From contig CM020619.1 in assembly GCA_009829735.1 (NCBI GenBank), positions 23,585,554 to 23,649,553 of the forward strand: a stretch of DNA of 64,000 nucleotides. Direction: 5' to 3'. Every line of letters starts with the position of its first letter. Position 1 is the first letter of the stretch. Shown here in pieces: positions 39,149 through 49,184 of the stretch. The notes below the pieces were generated by a model. The model did not search any database and was not told the DNA's origin. It saw only the letters and a program-made list of their open reading frames with translations. The stretch is from Pyropia yezoensis (taxonomy: Eukaryota > Rhodophyta > Bangiophyceae > Bangiales > Bangiaceae). Made by a program: the position numbers and the translations under genes.

Positions 39149-39151
39149 GTC

Positions 39152-41662
39152 ATGTTGATGAATGGGGAGACTATCCCCATCCTTGGTAAGGGAAAGTCTG
39201 TGGCTCCTGTGACAGTCTCACAGTCGAAGCCTGTTTGTTCTGTGAGGGAAGGGTTTACTGCTACCCTGCGTTTAGCCCGTAAAGTCATGTTGCCCCCCAA
39301 CTCGGTGGCGCACGTGGATGTTGTAACTGATTATGCGGGGAACGGGTTGGTGCACCCTAACCCCCGTCTTGCTCGCAAGCACCAAGTGCATGTTGCCCTT
39401 GGCACGATGGACTCCAAAGCCGGAGTCCCGTGGAGGATCCAGGTGATGAACCTGAGCTCGTCGCCCAAGTTCTTCAAGTCGGGGGCCAAGTTCGGCTATA
39501 TCGACCAAGACGAGGGACCCGTAGTAGCGGTCACCCTCAACGCGGGCGCAAGTAGCGACCCGAAGTCCGAAAAGGAGAAGCATCAAGCCAAGTCGGCCGC
39601 CTCTCCTCGGCCCCATGTGAACATGGAGGGTGTTCCACCCAGGTTGAGGGTTCAAGTTGAACGCCTCTTGGACCAATATCACAAGTTGTGGGATGGTCAA
39701 TTGGGACTCATGAGAGCTACCCAACACCGGATCGCGTTGAAACCCGGTGCACCCCCTATACGCCAACAACCGTATAGGGGAGGACCCCGTTCAAGGGCCC
39801 TCGTTAAGGAGCAAGTTGCTCGCATGGAGGCCCTCGATGTGATCGAGGCCAGCAACGCCGAGTGGGCGAGTCCGGTGGTTATCGTCCCCAAAGTTGATGG
39901 GACCCCCCGGTTCTGTATCGACTACCGTAAGCTCAACGAGAGCACGGTGAAGGACAGTTATCCCCTACCTAGGATGGACGACTGTCTGGACTCTCTGGGG
40001 GAGGCAAACGTGTTCTCTACCCTGGACTGTAACGCGGGGTACTGGCAAATTCCCATTGCCCCGGAGGACAGGCATAAAACTACCTTTACCTGTCACTGTG
40101 GTACCTACCAGTGCAAGCGTCTACCGTTTGGCCTGTGTAACGCGCCGGCAACTTTCCAGCGCATGGACATGATTCTGGCCGGAGTACGGTGGCAGATCTG
40201 TCTCGTGTACCTAGACGATATCATTGTGTTCTCCCGAAGTCCGGAAGAACACATTGGCCATCTTGGCCAGGTGTTCAAGCTACTTGCTGACGCCGGTGTG
40301 TCACTGAAGGCGAGTAAGTGCCACCTCTTCACTCAAGAGGTGGAATACTTGGGACATGTTGTCCGTCCGGGGCGTCTCAGTGTCAACGAGAAAAACTTGA
40401 GGGCCATCCGTAAGGCTCAGTACCCCCGGACCCAGACCCAGATGAGGAGCTTCCTCGGGATGTGTAACGTGTACCGACGTTTCACCAAGGGCTTCGCCAA
40501 GGTGGCGAAGCCGTTGAATGAGTTAGTAAGCTCAACGCTACCGAAGAACCAGCCTCCCCCAAGTCGGGTGGAGCAGGAATCCTTTGAGACTCTTCGGGAC
40601 CTTCTGCTGAAGCCCCCTATCCTGGCTATTCCCAGGTTGGGAGGCCACTACATCCTGGATGTGGACGCTAGCTACGACCAACTTGGTTGTGTGTTGCTTC
40701 AGCAGCAGCCGGACAAGGAGTACTTGCCGGTGGGATACTTCAGCAAGGGGCTAAACTCGGCCGAGAAGAACTACGGAGTCACCGAGTTGGAAGGACTCGC
40801 AGTGGTGTGGGCGGTGACGTCACTTCGTCACTACCTAGAGGGTGAGAAGTTCCTCATCCGCTGTGACCACCGCGCGTTGCAGTTCATCTTCAAGACGGAC
40901 TGTACGAACACTCGTCTCAACCGGTGGAGGGTGCGACTTGCACCCTTCAACTTTGATATTGAGTACCGACCTGGCAGGCAACATGCCCTTGCCGACGGCC
41001 TCTCTCGGGTACCTACCGAGGGACTGGACACCACCCCAGTCGATGAGGACATCCCCATCGTGGGGGTAGTCACGCGCTCGGGTCAGGCGTTGAACCCCGA
41101 GGCGCCAGGGAACAAGAAGTACTTGCCCCTGTCCCTGGACGAGGTGGTGAAGGCCCAGGCCGAGGATCCCTTCTGCAAGTCGCAGAGGGATACACTGGAT
41201 ACAGTGGCGGAGACGCGGTTCTTTCTGGGAGACGATGGCCTCCTCATGAGGAGGGGGGTATTCCAGGGGACCGAACAACTTGTCGTCCCCGCATCCCTCA
41301 AGGACAGTATCCTTGAGAGGGAGCACAACGCTCCACCGGGTGGACACCTGGGGTCTAGTAAACTGTACCAGACCCTGAGGACCAGGTACTACTGGCCGTC
41401 CATGGTGGTGGACATCTACAGTTGGGTGGCTGCCTGCACAAGTTGTGCACAGAACCGTCTGATGGAACGGCGGCCTACTACGGCTATGCTATTGTTCCCG
41501 GCCAAGGAGCCCTTCGCCGCGTTGGCGATGGACATCCTTGGGCCACTGCCAGTGACCGAGGAGGGCAACCAGTACCTCCTGGTCATCTGTGATTCACGAA
41601 ACTTACGCGAGCGATCCCACTGGCAGAGATCACGGCCATGTCGGTCGTGTCAGCCTTCCTAG
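39152..41662 (+). CDS. pol: Element 3 RT, RNase H and integrase (N-terminal part)
   Basis: RT: CIDYRKLNESTVKDSYPLPR, STLDCNAGYWQIPI, LPFGLCNAPATF, LVYLDDIIVFS. RNase H: LDVDASYDQLGCVLLQQQ, VTELEGLAVVWA, RCDHRALQFIF. The integrase zinc domain is REHNAPPGGHLG then ACTSCAQNR, and the first core Asp lies in LAMDILGPLPV. One residue is missing between FQR and MDMIL compared with element 1. Near 41592 the frame is lost after VICD; a deletion of about 4 bases explains the shift. The wrong frame runs to 41662. Confidence 0.9.
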   Translation: MLMNGETIPILGKGKSVAPVTVSQSKPVCSVREGFTATLRLARKVMLPPNSVAHVDVVTDYAGNGLVHPNPRLARKHQVHVALGTMDSKAGVPWRIQVMNLSSSPKFFKSGAKFGYIDQDEGPVVAVTLNAGASSDPKSEKEKHQAKSAASPRPHVNMEGVPPRLRVQVERLLDQYHKLWDGQLGLMRATQHRIALKPGAPPIRQQPYRGGPRSRALVKEQVARMEALDVIEASNAEWASPVVIVPKVDGTPRFCIDYRKLNESTVKDSYPLPRMDDCLDSLGEANVFSTLDCNAGYWQIPIAPEDRHKTTFTCHCGTYQCKRLPFGLCNAPATFQRMDMILAGVRWQICLVYLDDIIVFSRSPEEHIGHLGQVFKLLADAGVSLKASKCHLFTQEVEYLGHVVRPGRLSVNEKNLRAIRKAQYPRTQTQMRSFLGMCNVYRRFTKGFAKVAKPLNELVSSTLPKNQPPPSRVEQESFETLRDLLLKPPILAIPRLGGHYILDVDASYDQLGCVLLQQQPDKEYLPVGYFSKGLNSAEKNYGVTELEGLAVVWAVTSLRHYLEGEKFLIRCDHRALQFIFKTDCTNTRLNRWRVRLAPFNFDIEYRPGRQHALADGLSRVPTEGLDTTPVDEDIPIVGVVTRSGQALNPEAPGNKKYLPLSLDEVVKAQAEDPFCKSQRDTLDTVAETRFFLGDDGLLMRRGVFQGTEQLVVPASLKDSILEREHNAPPGGHLGSSKLYQTLRTRYYWPSMVVDIYSWVAACTSCAQNRLMERRPTTAMLLFPAKEPFAALAMDILGPLPVTEEGNQYLLVICDSRNLRERSHWQRSRPCRSCQPS

Positions 41663-42245: not shown

Positions 42246-43835
42246 AGTCAGCACCACCACCCCCGATTCGAGGAGTGCGCGGCCGAGGCGATCCAGCTGT
42301 GCCCGGCTCGCCGTGATGGCCTTCCCGGCATCACCCAGGTGACGCCCTCGGAGCACGGCGTCGTCGTCAGCGTGTGCCAGGCGGCGGGACGGCCGCGACC
42401 CACGCAAACACACCCCATGCCCCCTCTCCCCACAAAGCCTGACGTATTTATATATTAAATAGCACCCCCCCCCCCCCCTCCCCTGCCTTCACTCTTCTCG
42501 CGTCGTTCTCCTCGATTCATCTGCGACAGGTGCCCGAGGAAGGCGCACGCCGACGGCGCCATCGAACACCGTTCATAAGATGGCGCTCCCTCCTCACCCC
42601 CTTAGCGCTCCCTCTCCATCTCATTGTATGACTCCGCTCAAGTGCTCCTTCTGGAGGTCCAAAACCGTGAGTCCGACACGCCGCTCCCTTCACCGCATGC
42701 CAGATAGATATCTACATTGCGAGCAAAAAAAAAGCTAAATCTATAAATCTTTTCAGATGTGACGGGAAGCTCTAATCGAAATTCAAAAGCATCCATAATC
42801 AAATCACAAATCGCGAATGTGCATGGCACCCGAGCCGACATGAACGGGAGGGCTGCTCAATGGGTAATGTGGACCTGACAAATTGTGACACCATGCCAGA
42901 GATGTTAAGTGACTTCAATTATATTACAATCACGTTGATTTTATATGATTAAATCACTTAAAATCACACGTGTTTGAATGTAATCACTTAGAGCTTCTCA
43001 CAGTGGCCCCACCAGGTGCTACACATCTCTGACGTGCTCCACGCCGACGTTGCCGACGTCGGCAGACTGCCGGTGTGCCAACCCCCGCCCTCTCTCGTCC
43101 TCCTGACGTCGCCGCACCGCGGTGGGCGGTTGCGCTTCCCCACCACCCCCAGCGGAGACCACCCCATGACGAGCCTGTCTCGGCGGCACCTCCTGGCCGA
43201 GACAGCCTTTCTCCTGGCATGGTGGCCGCCACGCCACCGGTTGACGCACGGACCGAGCCTGCGACAGACGCCCGACCTCTCTTGTCGCGTAAAGCGCGGG
43301 CATCGAAGTACATCGGACCGATTAGAGTAGAAATCGGTCTCCATGATTGCAATCAATATAAATCGCGTCAGACCGTTTAAAATCAAGGGTTGATTATAAT
43401 CACATTTTTAGTCGACCCAAACTGAATTAAATCACACCTCTGCACGATGCTTAATCGGTCGTCAATTGGGCTAGCGCGCCCCGCCTCGAGACGTGACGGC
43501 TTTTTTCTTTGGCTTTGTGGCTCGGCAGGTGTCCCGATGGCGAGTCATACCCCCCCCTACGGTACTGTATGGCTTTTGGCTCCTTGGTGGAGATGCTTTC
43601 AGGCGTCAACGGGGCGCGGTCAGGCATCGAGGTGGAGTCCTCTGCCCCATGGGGCCTCTGGGGGGGGGGGGGGCTAATGTCGGCAGCCGCGTTCGGCCGG
43701 GGCTGCGCCCTGCCCGAGACAGGCCTTTTGCTATATTATTGTTTGCGCGTGCCTAGCACGAGGTCACATCGTTGCCCGCTGAGCTTCTTGGCGACCAACA
43801 GCCCAGTTCGGCCGCATACGTAGGGCGCTTGGGGT
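42246..43835. other. Intergenic region with two AT-rich islands
   Basis: A short minus-strand frame (ASRAQLDRLGRALLESG) ends in the gap and might be an exon edge, but it is too short to call. Two AT-rich islands with repeated AATCAC motifs lie at about 42900-42990 and 43337-43440, around GC-rich DNA. A perfect 8-bp inverted repeat lies at 43316-43323/43332-43339. I find no supported gene. Confidence 0.45.
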
Positions 43836-44801
43836 GTGCCCGACGCGAAACCCACTTCTGACCGATACGCTGGCACCGTGCGGAGCGACCGACCGACGAC
43901 CACCAAGGTCGGCGACCCCCTGTTCCTGGTCGCACCGCTGGGCTCTTCTTGCGCACACCTGGTGGCTCGTGTAAGGTCTCCAGAAAGCCACTGCCTTCTT
44001 CACCACGTTCTCGCCGAATCACTCAGTCCCCCACCCCGCCTTGAACGCCCTCCTGTGCTTCGTGACCGTGTGCACGCACGGCGCGTCGTGCCCTCCGCCC
44101 CCCCCCTTCGCACCGTTGCGAAATGCAGGCTCGTGGCAGGCGCACCCCCGGGGGGGCTGCCGGTTCTTCTTCTGCCCCCGTCACTCGTAGGCCGATGGTC
44201 CTCCCTGACCGATGAGGAGGGGTGGCGCGCCCTCTCACGCCCTTTTGCTGGCCGCCTGCGGCTGCTACCTCCTGCGGGTATCAGCCGCCGCTTCAAGGAC
44301 GCGCGGAAACGCATTTTCGGGCGGGGTGAGGAGGACTTTGCCGAGGTGGACGTGTGGCTCCAAAGTGGCTTGCACTACTCGATAGTCACGCGGGGGCAGC
44401 GGGCGGCGGCGGCGCCCATACCTGGGCAGCCCTTGCCGTCAAGGGCGGACGACCACCTTGAAGGATTTCGTTTCGTGCCGCTTCGCCGCGATGGCGCGGA
44501 CGGGGCCCCCCATTTCGACGTTCTTGTGCACCCCTTACAAAAGCCGCGACGCGCCGCCGTCGGTGACGACCAGTGGGTGGTGGAGGTGTATTGCCCTCCC
44601 TCGGAAATTGCCGTCACCTTCGTGGCTCGCAATGAGAAGGAGGCGAGAGAGTGGGAGCGACAGCTGGCGATGCGCGCCACCCCGCTGACGGTGGTGTGGT
44701 CCGCGCTTTTTGGCATCGGCGGTACGAGTGGCCACGGGTCAGGGGGGCCGTCCACGCATCCGTCTGGGGGGTCGGATTTCGGCGCTGATGGCCAAGCTTG
44801 A
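43836..44801 (+). CDS. ORF with possible PH-like domain, upstream of the NLR gene
   Basis: An open frame without an ATG before its last 30 codons, so a 5' exon or non-ATG start would be needed. The second half reads as ordered protein: GISRRFKDARKRIFGRGEED, then VEVYCPPSEIAVTFVARNEK, then EAREWERQLAM. The last strand plus the helix containing W resembles the end of a pleckstrin-homology domain. It overlaps the ATG at 44788 by 14 bases in another frame. It may be the N-terminal part of the NLR protein, joined by a splice or a sequencing shift, or a separate gene. I cannot decide between these. Confidence 0.4.
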   Translation: MPDAKPTSDRYAGTVRSDRPTTTKVGDPLFLVAPLGSSCAHLVARVRSPESHCLLHHVLAESLSPPPRLERPPVLRDRVHARRVVPSAPPLRTVAKCRLVAGAPPGGLPVLLLPPSLVGRWSSLTDEEGWRALSRPFAGRLRLLPPAGISRRFKDARKRIFGRGEEDFAEVDVWLQSGLHYSIVTRGQRAAAAPIPGQPLPSRADDHLEGFRFVPLRRDGADGAPHFDVLVHPLQKPRRAAVGDDQWVVEVYCPPSEIAVTFVARNEKEAREWERQLAMRATPLTVVWSALFGIGGTSGHGSGGPSTHPSGGSDFGADGQA

Positions 44802-45497
44802 GGACCTGTTGTCAAAGGATGTGATCACAGGCGCGGCGGAGGTGGTCACCGCCGTGGCGCACGAGGCCGCTTACGACCTGGCGGTCGCGGCAGGGCCGCT
44901 CGCGGCGTTTGCGGTGAGCATGCTGTGTTCGGCCGCGCGCGTGTGCGCCGCGACTTGCCGGGCAGGTCACGTGGCAGCTAAGCTGCAGGAAGAGGCAGGA
45001 GCGCTCTCCGAAGTGGTGCGCAATTTCCTACTTCCTGCGGTTGTCAACCTGAAAGATGCGCGGCAGCACTGTGCACCTGGGCTGGTAGGCCAGGTGCGCG
45101 AGGTGGCCGCCGACCTGGACGCCCTCACCGGCCGACTTCTGCATGTGGCATTGTCGCGCCTGGCCGGCGCGAAGGAGGCGCTTGCGGCGCGCGGTGGGGT
45201 CGACGACGGGTCGTTGGGGCGCGAGCTATCTGCATGCAAGGAGGCGGTGGACGGCCTGATGAACACCGCCACACTGGCCCAAGTCACCGCGCAGTTATCG
45301 ACGGCCAACAAGGACACAGCGCAATTGCTTCAAGACAAGGCCGCAGAGGTAGCCGTGCCCCCCGTGCCCGACCGCATTGTCGCCAGGTGGGACGACAACA
45401 GTGCCGACCAGCCATGGTGTAAGCTGCTAGCGGTGGTGCTTCGCCCCCCCCTGCGTCTGGGGGCGGCACCCGAGCGTGCATTGCCAGCACACATGGG
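44788..45497 (+). CDS. NLR-like protein, N-terminal helical domain
   Basis: ATG at 44788 starts MAKLEDLLSKDVITGAAEVV. About 200 residues of Ala/Leu/Val-rich amphipathic helices follow, including CAATCRAGHVAAKLQEEAGA, LQDKAAEV and a long helix around residues 95-135. The pattern recalls four-helix-bundle signalling or membrane-active domains found before NB-ARC modules (HeLo, RPW8, MLKL type). That assignment is inference from shape only. The frame reaches the P-loop and there loses phase by one base (GCACACATGGGATGGGGGG region, 45488-45502). It continues in the 45498 frame. Confidence 0.65.
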
Positions 45498-48400
45498 ATG
45501 GGGGGGGTGGGCAAGACTGTCGTCTGCCAGCTGGTAGCAGAGCGGGCGGCGCTGAGTGACCGCTACGAGCACGGCGTGTTCTGGGTCAAGCTGGGCCAGG
45601 CAGCGGGTGATGTCGAGGCGATGTATGGCATGCTGGCGGTTGCTACTGTGGTGGCCCAAGAAAAGGTCACGGCGCCAGACGTGGACGTGGCTGCCAAGAA
45701 ACTGCGGGAGAAACTGCTGAGCAAGGCATGCCTGGTGGTCGTGGACGACTGCTGGGACCAGCGCCTGGTCCGGCTCTTTGTAAATGCCGTAAACGATGCG
45801 GCGTGCAGCCGCTGCACGATGCTGTTCTCGACGAGAGATGCACGCATTGCCGACATCGTGGAGGACCGCTCCTGCCGTGTGCAGGTCCGGTTGATGGACG
45901 ACGAGCTGGGACGTGCGGTGCTGCGTTCGCATGCCATGCGGGATGGGCAGCTGTTTCGGGAACCGGCGACCGAGGCCGACAAAGCGGGGCTGGCTCTGAT
46001 GCTCACGGTTGCGGCGGGGCTCCCCCTGGCGTTGGGCGTACTCGGCGCGATTGTGCGGAAAACGGAGAATTGGGCGGCCACGGCTGCGGACCTGCAGGGC
46101 GCGCTGGACGATCAGCCGGATTCCATGGACAAGAAGCACAAATCGCTGTCGGCATGCTTCACAGTCGGCTACGACCAGCTGGCCGCCGGCGACCCGCGGC
46201 CTGACCTACGCAAAGATCGTTTCCGCGCGCTCTGCGTCTTGTCCAAGCAGGAGTTTGTGCCACCGTCGACGCTCTCAGCGCTGTGGGACCTGGACCCGGC
46301 GAGTGCTGAAGCGGAAGCGCGCGAGATGGGCCACATGGCCATGGCAACCGTGCGGGAGGAGGCCGGCCGTCTGCATCTGGGACTCCATGACTTGCTCATC
46401 GACTGGATTAAAGACAAGCTGGTGACGGGGTCGGAGCGCGAGATATACCACAAGAAGCTCGTTGATGGGTATGAACGCCGCCTTGGCCTTTGCCGCTCGG
46501 ATTTTGGCGCGTCATCAACCGTCCAGTGCCGGCCATGGTGGAACTTGGAGGCTGCTGGTGACCGGTACATTAAGAACACCCTGTGCCGCCACTTGCACGC
46601 CGGTGGCCCGGCCTCGCAGAGGGAGCTGGAGGCTCTGCTGTGGGACTGGCGCTGGATTGAGTGGCGCTTGCGGGATGGTGGCTCCCCGGGGTTTGCCTAT
46701 AGGACGGACTGTCACATCGCGGGGGGGGCGTCGATCCAGCGTCTTCGCAAGATCGTGGTCGGGGCGGTGGCGGTGTCGTTTTCGATGGGCGTTTCGGCGG
46801 TCAGGCAGGTCGCGTTTGAGCTGTCTGAGCGGTTGCGAGTGGCCGCTGGTACTGCAGAGGATTGCGCGTCGCGGCAGCTGAGACTGGCCGCCAAGCGATC
46901 CTTATGTTACCCATCGATCGAGCTCCTTCGAGCTGGTAGCCTCGACGAGCCTCGCGAAGTCAGTATCCTCGCAGGTCATGAGATGGCTGTCAACTGTACC
47001 TGTACTCTGCGAGACACTAGAGGCAGGACCATCTTGGTGTCCGGGTCGTCCGACAACACGCTACGGGTGTGGGACGTGACGCGGGACGAAGAGCTGGCAG
47101 TGCTGGAGGGCCACACGGACTATGTCATGTGCGTGTGCGTCGTGGATGTGCCGGGCGCGGCGGGCGGGGGCGAAACGGTGCAGCGGGTGGTGTCGGGGTC
47201 GGACGACGAGACGCTGCGGGTGTGGGACGTGGAGGAGGGCAAGCAGCTGGCGGTGCTGGAGGGCCACGCGGACGACGTCATCTGCGTGTGCGTGGTGGAT
47301 GTGCCGGGCGCGGCGGGCGGGGGCGGGACGGTGCAGCGGGTGGTGTCGGGGTCGGGCGACAAGACGCTGCGGGTGTGGGACGTGAAAGAGGGCAAGCAGC
47401 TGGCGGTGCTGGAGGGCCACGCGGACGACGTCACCTGCGTGTGCGTGGTGGATGTGCCGGGCGCGGCGGGCGGGGGCGGGACGGTGCAGCGGGTGGTGTC
47501 GGGGTCGCACGACAAGACGCTGCGGGTGTGGGACGTGGAGGAAGGCAAGCAGCTGGCGGTGCTGGAGGGCCACACGGGCTGGGTCATGTGCGTGTGCGTG
47601 GTGGATGTGCCGGGCGCGGCGGGCGGGGGCGGGACGGTGCAGCGGGTGGTGTCGGGGTCGGTCGACGGGACGCTGCGGGTGTGGGACGTGGAGGAGGGCA
47701 AGCAGCTGGCGGTGCTGGAGGGCCACATGGGCATGGTCAGGTGTGTGTGCGTGGTGGATATGCCGGGCGCGGCGGGCGAGGGCGGGACGGTGCAGCGGGT
47801 GGTGTCGGGGTCGGACGACAAGACGCTGCGGGTGTGGGACGTGGAGGAGGGCAAGCAGCTGGCGGTGCTGGTGGGCCGCACGAATTTGGTCACCTGCGTG
47901 AGCGTGGTGGATGTCCCGGGCGCGGCGGGTGGGAGCGGGACGGTGCAGCGGGTGGTGTCGGGGTCGTTCGACAAGACGCTGCGGGTGTGGGACGTGACGC
48001 GGGACGAAGAGCTGGCGGTGCTGGAGGGCCACACGGACGACGTCACCTGCGTGTTCGTGGTGAATGTGCCGGGCGCGGCGGGCGGGGGCGGGACGGTGCA
48101 GCGGGTGGTGTCGGCGTCGCACGACAAGACGCTGCGGGTGTGGGACGTGGAGGAGGGCAAGCAGCTGGCGGTGCTGGAGGGCCACACGGGCTGGGTCATG
48201 TGCGTGTGCGTGGTGGATGTGCCGGGCGCGGCGGGCGGGGGCGGGACGGTGCAGCGGGTGGTGTCGGGGTCGGGCGACAAGACGCTGCGGGTGTGGGACG
48301 TGGAGGAAGGCAAGCAGCTGGCGGTGCTGGAGGGCCACACGGGCTGGGTCATGTGCGTGTGCGTGGTGGATGTGCCGGGCGCGGCGGGCGGGGGCGGGAC

Positions 48401-49184
48401 GGTGCAGCGGGTGGTGTCGGGGTCGGTCGACGGGACGCTGCGGGTGTGGGACGTGGAGGAGGGCAAGCAGCTGGCGGTGCTGGAGGGCCACATGGGCATG
48501 GTCAGGTGTGTGTGCGTGGTGGATGTGCCGGGCGCGGCGGGCGAGGGCGGGACGGTGCAGCGGGTGGTGTCGGGGTCGGACGACGAGACGCTGCGGGTGT
48601 GGGACGTGGAGGAAGGCAAGCAGCTGGCGGTGCTGGAGGGCCACACGGGCTGGGTCATGTGCGTGTGCGTCGTGGATGTGCCGGGCGCGGCGGGCGGGGG
48701 CGGGACGGTGCAGCGGGTGGTGTCGGGGTCGGTCGACGGGACGCTGCGGGTGTGGGACGTGGAGGAGGGCAAGCAGCTGGCGGTGCTGGAGGGCCACGCG
48801 GACGACGTCACCTGCGTGTGCGTCGTGGATGTGCCGGGTGCGGCGGGCGGGGGCGGGACGGTGCAGCGGGTGGTGTCGGGGTCGGGCGACAATACGCTGC
48901 GGGTGTGGGAGATTAGTGCGGCTGGCGGAGCTAGTCTTTCCTCGTCCATGAATCTGTCTGGGCAGCCCGTCATGATCTGTCGTGCACGTTGTGTGACGAG
49001 GTCTGCCGTTCTTGTCACCACCGTACTGGGGGCGCTGTATCTGGCGGACTGTGTGGAGGGTCTGTTTTTTTCTTTAGCTTGCCCTGCTCCAGTGGCCGTC
49101 GCGCATCCTCTTGGCATGGGTCGCTTAGTGCTCGGCGCGAAGACTGGCGCCATGCACTGGGCTCGGGGTGCGTTTGAGTTCTAG
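45498..49184 (+). CDS. NB-ARC ATPase with WD40 repeats (NLR/NWD-type receptor)
   Basis: 1,228 codons. NB-ARC: P-loop MGGVGKT at the very start, Walker B LVVVDDCWD (79-87), RNBS-B-like CTMLFSTRD (106-114), GLPLAL (174-179) and an MHD-like HLGLHDLLIDW motif near 305. A linker of about 150 residues follows, then 13 WD40 units (46962-48929) and an 80-residue tail that may form a 14th blade. Fourteen blades would make two seven-bladed propellers. Such STAND proteins sense a ligand with the repeats and oligomerise through NB-ARC to trigger defence or cell death. The start at MGG is an artefact of a 1-base shift; the real N-terminus is the preceding helical frame from 44788, giving about 1,465 residues. 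Confidence 0.85.
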   Translation: MGGVGKTVVCQLVAERAALSDRYEHGVFWVKLGQAAGDVEAMYGMLAVATVVAQEKVTAPDVDVAAKKLREKLLSKACLVVVDDCWDQRLVRLFVNAVNDAACSRCTMLFSTRDARIADIVEDRSCRVQVRLMDDELGRAVLRSHAMRDGQLFREPATEADKAGLALMLTVAAGLPLALGVLGAIVRKTENWAATAADLQGALDDQPDSMDKKHKSLSACFTVGYDQLAAGDPRPDLRKDRFRALCVLSKQEFVPPSTLSALWDLDPASAEAEAREMGHMAMATVREEAGRLHLGLHDLLIDWIKDKLVTGSEREIYHKKLVDGYERRLGLCRSDFGASSTVQCRPWWNLEAAGDRYIKNTLCRHLHAGGPASQRELEALLWDWRWIEWRLRDGGSPGFAYRTDCHIAGGASIQRLRKIVVGAVAVSFSMGVSAVRQVAFELSERLRVAAGTAEDCASRQLRLAAKRSLCYPSIELLRAGSLDEPREVSILAGHEMAVNCTCTLRDTRGRTILVSGSSDNTLRVWDVTRDEELAVLEGHTDYVMCVCVVDVPGAAGGGETVQRVVSGSDDETLRVWDVEEGKQLAVLEGHADDVICVCVVDVPGAAGGGGTVQRVVSGSGDKTLRVWDVKEGKQLAVLEGHADDVTCVCVVDVPGAAGGGGTVQRVVSGSHDKTLRVWDVEEGKQLAVLEGHTGWVMCVCVVDVPGAAGGGGTVQRVVSGSVDGTLRVWDVEEGKQLAVLEGHMGMVRCVCVVDMPGAAGEGGTVQRVVSGSDDKTLRVWDVEEGKQLAVLVGRTNLVTCVSVVDVPGAAGGSGTVQRVVSGSFDKTLRVWDVTRDEELAVLEGHTDDVTCVFVVNVPGAAGGGGTVQRVVSASHDKTLRVWDVEEGKQLAVLEGHTGWVMCVCVVDVPGAAGGGGTVQRVVSGSGDKTLRVWDVEEGKQLAVLEGHTGWVMCVCVVDVPGAAGGGGTVQRVVSGSVDGTLRVWDVEEGKQLAVLEGHMGMVRCVCVVDVPGAAGEGGTVQRVVSGSDDETLRVWDVEEGKQLAVLEGHTGWVMCVCVVDVPGAAGGGGTVQRVVSGSVDGTLRVWDVEEGKQLAVLEGHADDVTCVCVVDVPGAAGGGGTVQRVVSGSGDNTLRVWEISAAGGASLSSSMNLSGQPVMICRARCVTRSAVLVTTVLGALYLADCVEGLFFSLACPAPVAVAHPLGMGRLVLGAKTGAMHWARGAFEF
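47094..48929 (+). repeat. Twelve 153-bp WD40-coding units, near identical
   Basis: Each unit encodes 51 residues from LAVLEGH to GKQ or DEE. Units differ almost only at residues 8-10, 12, 37 and 39. Because 153 is divisible by three, two long frames on the opposite strand stay open through the array; they are not genes. Such an array is expected to recombine and to be hard to assemble, so copy number may be wrong. Confidence 0.93.

Follow-up and report, generated by a model that had tools for sequence, protein, structure and literature searches.

Does a run of almost identical WD40 repeats in a red alga mark a receptor whose binding surface is continually renewed? The question is raised by a gene in a 64,000-nucleotide stretch of the Pyropia yezoensis genome (contig CM020619.1, positions 23,585,554 to 23,649,553; hereafter the window, C2:23585554-23649553 of the genome of 107,475,971 bases that was used for all genome-wide scans). 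The gene encodes a P-loop NB-ARC domain followed by a repeat sensor, that is, the layout of NLR/STAND proteins (as established from Pfam and the translation), and is most likely a red-algal receptor gene of the STAND/NLR type, with the sensor at the C-terminus of a single reading frame. An initial annotation, made from the letters of the window, had proposed a fast-evolving receptor for self/non-self or pathogen recognition. We assign a probability of about 0.7 to the reading that the gene encodes a fast-diversifying intracellular STAND/NLR-type receptor, with exchange of units within the locus and selected contact positions.

An array of homogenised WD40 units

Tandem Repeats Finder describes the array as 12.3 copies of a 153-base period with 91% matches and 0% indels (47035-48910), and the translation resolves it into twelve 51-residue units in strict register that follow a divergent unit of 45 residues. 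Pairs of units are on average 91.8% identical in DNA and 85.0% in protein over codons 1-42, and half of the pairs (33/66) are at least 85% identical in protein; 11 of the 12 units are distinct at the DNA level and 10 at the protein level. The initial description of twelve near-identical units is therefore accurate in register and overall identity and too simple for two of them: unit 6 is more divergent (21 of 153 bases off consensus), and unit 12 leaves the repeat pattern after residue 41, at the end of the array. Pfam matches 13 WD40 stretches in the frame, and an AlphaFold2 model contains approximately 15 WD40 blades; together with the unit identities, these describe consecutive near-identical blades as in highly repetitive β-propellers. 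A PADLOC match (HEAT-ARM_XIII) falls inside the WD40 repeats and was given no weight. In a protein search with three units, the best 120 of 1011 proteins are at most 58% identical, and none was used.

Variation is concentrated at four positions per blade

With residues numbered from the motif LEGH, the positions to which the initial annotation had ascribed most of the variation (8, 9, 10, 12, 37 and 39) become 5, 6, 7, 9, 34 and 36. The attribution is borne out: in the window analysis, for which 12 of the 13 units were used, these six of 42 columns carry 77% of the nonsynonymous differences, and positions 7, 9, 34 and 36 by themselves carry 60% in 10% of the columns. The nonsynonymous difference (pN) is 0.497 at these four positions compared with a synonymous difference (pS) of 0.045 in the other 36 codons, that is, a ratio of 11.3 (bootstrap 7.4-22.7); pN in the other 36 codons is 0.026. 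None of 100,000 random draws of four columns matched the observed sum (11/12 window units).

The same excess is found in seven of the eight strongly homogenised WD40 arrays of the genome (11/13 units of the window, 13/13 of L014, 25/27 of L015, 13/15 of L033, 13/15 of L034, 13/14 of L037 and 7/12 of L038; the eighth, L036, has too few units and was left out). In 7/7 arrays, pN at the four positions exceeds pS in the rest (permutation P ≤0.0005), with the following values for pN/pS and for the share of nonsynonymous differences that the four positions hold: window, 0.492/0.055 and 54%; L014, 0.340/0.049 and 41%; L015, 0.329/0.110 and 52%; L033, 0.381/0.040 and 57%; L034, 0.348/0.148 and 48%; L037, 0.593/0.065 and 55%; L038, 0.391/0.171 and 31%. 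On the basis of the permutation in seven arrays, we set aside a simple alignment effect as the cause of the variable columns. Within the four codons themselves, pN/pS is greater than 1 in 6/7 arrays. The variable places are shared by arrays with unit lengths of 47, 51 and 54 residues; in L038, several further columns are as variable as the four.

In the repeats of Podospora anserina, codons 7, 9, 25 and 27, which flank the conserved codons 8 and 26, are described as being under strong positive selection (PMC1805685). Between the two pairs, the algal unit is longer by nine residues, which makes its positions 34 and 36 the places of 25 and 27 in P. anserina. The comparison of sequences thus supports the view that diversification strikes exactly the WD40 positions that are selected in HET-D/HET-E. 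In the AlphaFold2 model, read for its strands and not for coordinates or exposure values, the variable residues lie at or beside the d-a and b-c loops; the initial annotation would have abandoned its reading had they been buried, and because of their placement in the model that objection does not arise.

Units are exchanged mainly within the locus

The units of the array appear to be shuffled as halves: first half-units with TGW-M are paired with V.G and with G.K, those with MGM-R with D.K and with D.E, and those with ADD-T with H.K and with G.N. Between related loci, positional homology has been lost; in L033 and L034 (NB-ARC domains 88% identical) the score is 0.902 for units at the same position and 0.900 for those at other positions, with 0.904 and 0.888 for L034/L036 and 0.762 and 0.756 for L037/L038. 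In contrast, the diverged pair L009/L013 retains positional homology (0.865 vs 0.71-0.73). Half-unit shuffling and lost positional homology together point to continuing exchange.

The closest units are found mostly in the same gene. When partial units and L010 (almost a copy of L011, containing a stretch of Ns) are left out, the nearest neighbor of a unit is in its own gene for 12/13 window units and for 88/92 units of L014, L015, L033, L034, L037 and L038. A genome search with unit 4 gave at least 121 matches, of which 12 lie inside the array of that unit (the match counts of such searches are lower bounds); outside the array, the best-scoring match is 77% identical over 137 of 153 bases, one other is 78% identical over 125 bases, and identities of 82-89% occur only over 93 bases or fewer. 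On these outside matches, donor cassettes elsewhere in the genome were set aside. Because the best outside match reaches just 77%, homogenisation seems to proceed mainly within the locus, unlike in Podospora; the homogenisation that the initial annotation had recognized is in this way supported and placed mainly inside the gene.

Architecture of the gene

The features of the gene are collected in Table 1.

Table 1. Features of the receptor gene in the window.
Feature	Position	Strand	Basis and remarks
N-terminal PH-like domain	44195..44771	+	frame of 43824-44801; likely ATG at 44195 by eye, frame break right behind
Helical region with hydrophobic stretch	44788..45435	+	reading frame differs from that of the PH-like part
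Open frame: NB-ARC, helical region after NB-ARC, WD40 array	45423..49184	+	1253 codons plus stop
NB-ARC nucleotide-binding domain, P-loop GMGGVGKT	45480..46157	+	Pfam PF00931, 85.2 bits, residues 20-245
Post-NB-ARC region, counterpart of APAF1 up to residue 519	46158..46960	+	family profile
First WD40 unit, divergent, 45 residues	46968..47102	+	translation
Twelve homogenised 51-residue WD40 units	47103..48938	+	variable residues 5, 6, 7, 9, 34, 36 per unit
Two cryptic C-terminal blades	48939..49181	+	strands at residues 665-743 of AlphaFold2 model

Two database proteins correspond to the window gene. P0002 is identical to the 1253-codon frame across 1228 residues and is probably another version of the same assembly. 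P0001, a cluster of three member sequences whose source we take to be short-read assemblies, is one uninterrupted protein that begins upstream; its residues 417-1012 are 99% identical to the window frame, and its upstream parts map to 44211-44771 and 44737-45507, two stretches that are each out of frame with what follows (residues 181-437 match the latter at 91% identity by tblastn). By eye, the first five residues of P0001 can be placed in a third frame, at the ATG of position 44195.

The PH fold at the N-terminus was recognized from a fold search dominated by PH domains; Foldseek itself gave no match at E ≤0.001. The helical region is a candidate signaling or execution domain: helices run across it in the model of L038, and mean hydropathy reaches at least 1.78 over 19 residues in 15/15 of its members. 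Against the sequences in the PDB it finds nothing below E 0.25, and one of the 15 members touches NACHT_N at 0.72 in Pfam. Pfam lists no HET domain for the N-terminal frames of the window, nor at E up to 5 in 15 helical-region and 11 PH-region members; likewise, it lists no CARD for the window frames or for members of either region. The N-terminus has a PH fold instead.

Upstream of the gene, a frame at 39149-41662 resembles a Ty3/gypsy-type retroelement polyprotein, with reverse transcriptase and integrase-like motifs recognized by eye; it is followed by Ns to approximately 42245.

A genome-wide set of arrays

The observation extends beyond the window gene to a genome-wide set of arrays. There are 32 NB-ARC matches in the genome, 17 of which are followed by WD40 units; a genome search with the helical region (44809-45390) matches 17 places, and these are the same 17 loci. 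The PH region is matched at full length in 15 of the 17 and partially in the other two, as well as at C1:16983745-16984266, where there is no NB-ARC match. When a homogenised array is defined by Tandem Repeats Finder as a period of 126 to 162 (or 276) with more than 4 copies and at least 85% matches, 15 of the 32 NB-ARC loci have one: eight are WD40 arrays (those of the window, L014, L015, L033, L034, L036, L037 and L038), three have 46-residue units (L020, L021 and L022, the last at double period) and four have 42-residue units (L023, L024, L027 and L028). Both of the latter kinds are TPR by Pfam, with one array of each checked (L018, itself at 81% in Tandem Repeats Finder, and L023). The 42-residue unit has recurrent variable positions (e.g., 13, 23, 30 and 36/37). 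For the six most variable positions of the TPR arrays, pN exceeds pS in the rest in 8/9 arrays analyzed and is below it in L026 (L021 yielded no units), an excess that is biased upward because these positions were picked after the fact.

Several loci stand out on their own account. L015 contains 27 WD40 units, approximately twice the usual number, across more than one reading frame. At C1:36370945-36371977, outside the NB-ARC matches, WD40 units spaced at 141 bases lie in a frame of 1294 codons and may be an orphan array. L010 (on C2) and L011 (on C3) are near-identical receptor copies, of which the C2 copy contains Ns and broken frames and is possibly an assembly duplicate. One NACHT match is listed in the genome, at C3:17266086.

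A protein search with the NB-ARC domain found 19 proteins. In addition to P0001 and P0002, P0004 is L013 (100% identical) and P0006 is L038 (98%). P0003 is 88% identical to the window gene, has no closer relative among the 17 loci and ends short of the array. P0005 and P0007 are less than 50% identical to all 17 loci and so are probably from other organisms; identity does not exceed 30% for the other twelve, and the one that is named is from Bradyrhizobium. A profile search added 13 proteins that cover at most 37% of the query; its reach is limited, because P0005, itself a member of the query, went unlisted.

Comparison with known receptors

Like HET-E, HET-D and HET-R of P. anserina, the algal protein is a NOD protein with near-identical WD40 units in its C-terminal part, and in both the units vary at four shared positions, those that flank V8 and the D in the b-c loop. 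The published models of the fungal proteins have two propellers and cryptic divergent blades at the end (PMC1805685; PMC12222747); the algal array likewise ends in blades that are cryptic in the model. The two also differ. The algal NOD is an NB-ARC (PF00931) and the fungal one is NACHT, the algal N-terminus is a PH fold and helical region in place of HET, the algal units have 51 residues with a nine-residue insertion, the algal arrays show little sign of exchange between loci, and the alga is not a fungal but a red-algal host. We set aside an assignment to the HNWD family, since the NOD is not of the NACHT type and no HET domain is listed. The resemblance to these fungal proteins that the initial annotation had drawn is thus a resemblance of the sensor and its selected positions, not of family.

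Fungal NLRs with high internal conservation are reported with WD40, ANK and TPR repeats (PMC4986451). As in that survey, the algal genome contains more than one type of homogenised repeat, with variation at few positions; it differs in showing WD40 and TPR arrays only, in its other N-termini and in lying outside the fungi. A second survey, on amplification in highly repetitive WD40 propellers such as 2ymu, draws 84% of its eukaryotic sequences from two fungal phyla (PMC9218822).

Positions 454-859 of the family profile A1 match APAF1 150-519 in two stretches (E 1.4e-35 for the whole sequence). Both proteins have an NB-ARC, the region that follows it and a long WD40 part of approximately 15 blades; the algal protein has a PH fold at the N-terminus and no listed CARD. 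In Apaf-1, the blades, about 15, form two WD40 propellers of 7 and 8, and they are divergent.

NB-ARC+WD40 and NB-ARC+TPR transcripts are listed for P. yezoensis, and three of the former, possibly including the window gene, are up more than 1.5-fold in red rot disease (PMC6928737); two NB-ARC families are noted in multicellular red algae (PMC8307928). The window family is very likely the same as these, which the two reports describe by domains and expression, not by homogenised arrays or variable contacts. Brown algae, too, have candidate immune receptors whose repeat sensor is shuffled, the NB-ARC-TPR and LRR-ROCO genes (PMC11378527); there, exons with single repeats are shuffled, whereas here tandem units are exchanged inside a long frame. 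The gene family is therefore known already; in the literature that our search covered (including PMC6928737, PMC8891106, PMC11378527 and PMC8307928; subscription journals lay mostly outside it), we found no report of homogenised arrays or selected contact positions as its mode of evolution in red algae.

Weighing the explanations

If the gene is a diversifying receptor, the rings would grip a ligand with their d-a/b-c loop face, after which the NB-ARC would switch and oligomerise, and the PH and helical regions would act at a membrane. Units would be copied, deleted and shuffled inside the locus, so that the scaffold stays uniform, as selection keeps four contact positions per blade different; new binding surfaces would arise by mutation and by recombination of half-units. 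The likeliest use is in immunity or in self/non-self recognition, in partial agreement with the initial annotation, to which the NB-ARC architecture, the homogenisation, the diversified positions and the algal host lend support.

Several observations count against this reading. The evolutionary evidence comes from one genome. Inside the four codons, pN/pS is 0.60 in L015, and one of the four positions (D+1) is constant in L014; third-position G/C bias may lower pS, so the pN/pS ratios may be overestimates; and the comparison of position variability is confined to NB-ARC receptor arrays. In L036, 0/5 units are nearest to their own gene and 5/5 are nearest to L033, even as its NB-ARC is nearer to L034 (0.95) than to L033 (0.87); exchange inside the cluster at C2:1.53-1.93 Mb is possible. 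Going by its ring matches, the model seems to be split into rings of 8 and then 7 blades at a predicted template modeling score of 0.57, and this ring placement is not supported, because the two-ring relatives Apaf-1 and 2ymu match it at root-mean-square deviations of at least 17.6 (for Apaf-1, 3shf, 19.8 over 548 in the superposition of the whole array). The 15 helical-region members have no more than scattered weak Pfam matches (best E 0.0043). Finally, in the window copy three frame breaks lie before the P-loop (44195-45507), where P0001 has none, and the copy may therefore be damaged; with the remainder of the gene open, decay seems less likely than assembly error.

The array could be a recently amplified propeller in which one blade was copied and the differences reflect relaxed drift at exposed loops. 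New propellers commonly and constantly arise by multiplication of a single blade, and one fungal protein of this kind has 15 blades, modelled as 7+8 (PMC9218822). Exposed loop positions are the least constrained. We nevertheless find this explanation doubtful: drift alone should not put pN at the four positions between two and eleven times above the synonymous level, as it is in 7/7 arrays; the places that vary are the same in arrays of three unit lengths; and the half-unit shuffling and lost positional homology point to an exchange that is still under way. A conserved endogenous ligand would not favor varied contact positions either, which makes an APAF1-like cell-death regulator or scaffold quite improbable, even one with variable contacts for several endogenous partners; the 17 paralogues also differ in their residues at these positions, and Pfam lists no CARD. 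In its favor are the approximately 15 blades, the number in Apaf-1, and the fact that the family profile has APAF1 as its solved NB-ARC match.

We consider it very improbable that assembly artifacts account for the array or for the N-terminal breaks, or that the copy is a decaying gene. The continuous frame of P0001 and the fact that it carries just three WD40 units are consistent with that explanation, but the NB-ARC and the array are open across 1253 codons, random error would produce indels and scattered changes, and seven other WD40 loci are also homogenised. Short-read assemblies are reported to fail to rebuild such arrays in Podospora and long reads to succeed (PMC12222747); the three-unit array of P0001 suggests a short-read collapse. 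A diversifying receptor with exchange of units within the locus remains our preferred reading.

Implications

Highly conserved repeats are rare in one survey outside the fungi (0.4% for green plants, 0.8% for animals; PMC4986451), and the fungal receptors with near-identical WD40 units had stood apart as a special case. It is conceivable, and in our view unlikely, that red algae independently built fungus-like self-renewing NLR sensors of WD40 and TPR repeats, renewed within the locus, for non-self recognition that includes cell fusion and allorecognition as well as pathogens. That a seaweed shares the logic of the fungal sensor down to four residues, on another NOD and another N-terminus, suggests that this solution was reached more than once. 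For P. yezoensis, a crop alga, the arrays provide a set of candidate receptors, and short-read assemblies of the species may collapse its most variable receptor genes.

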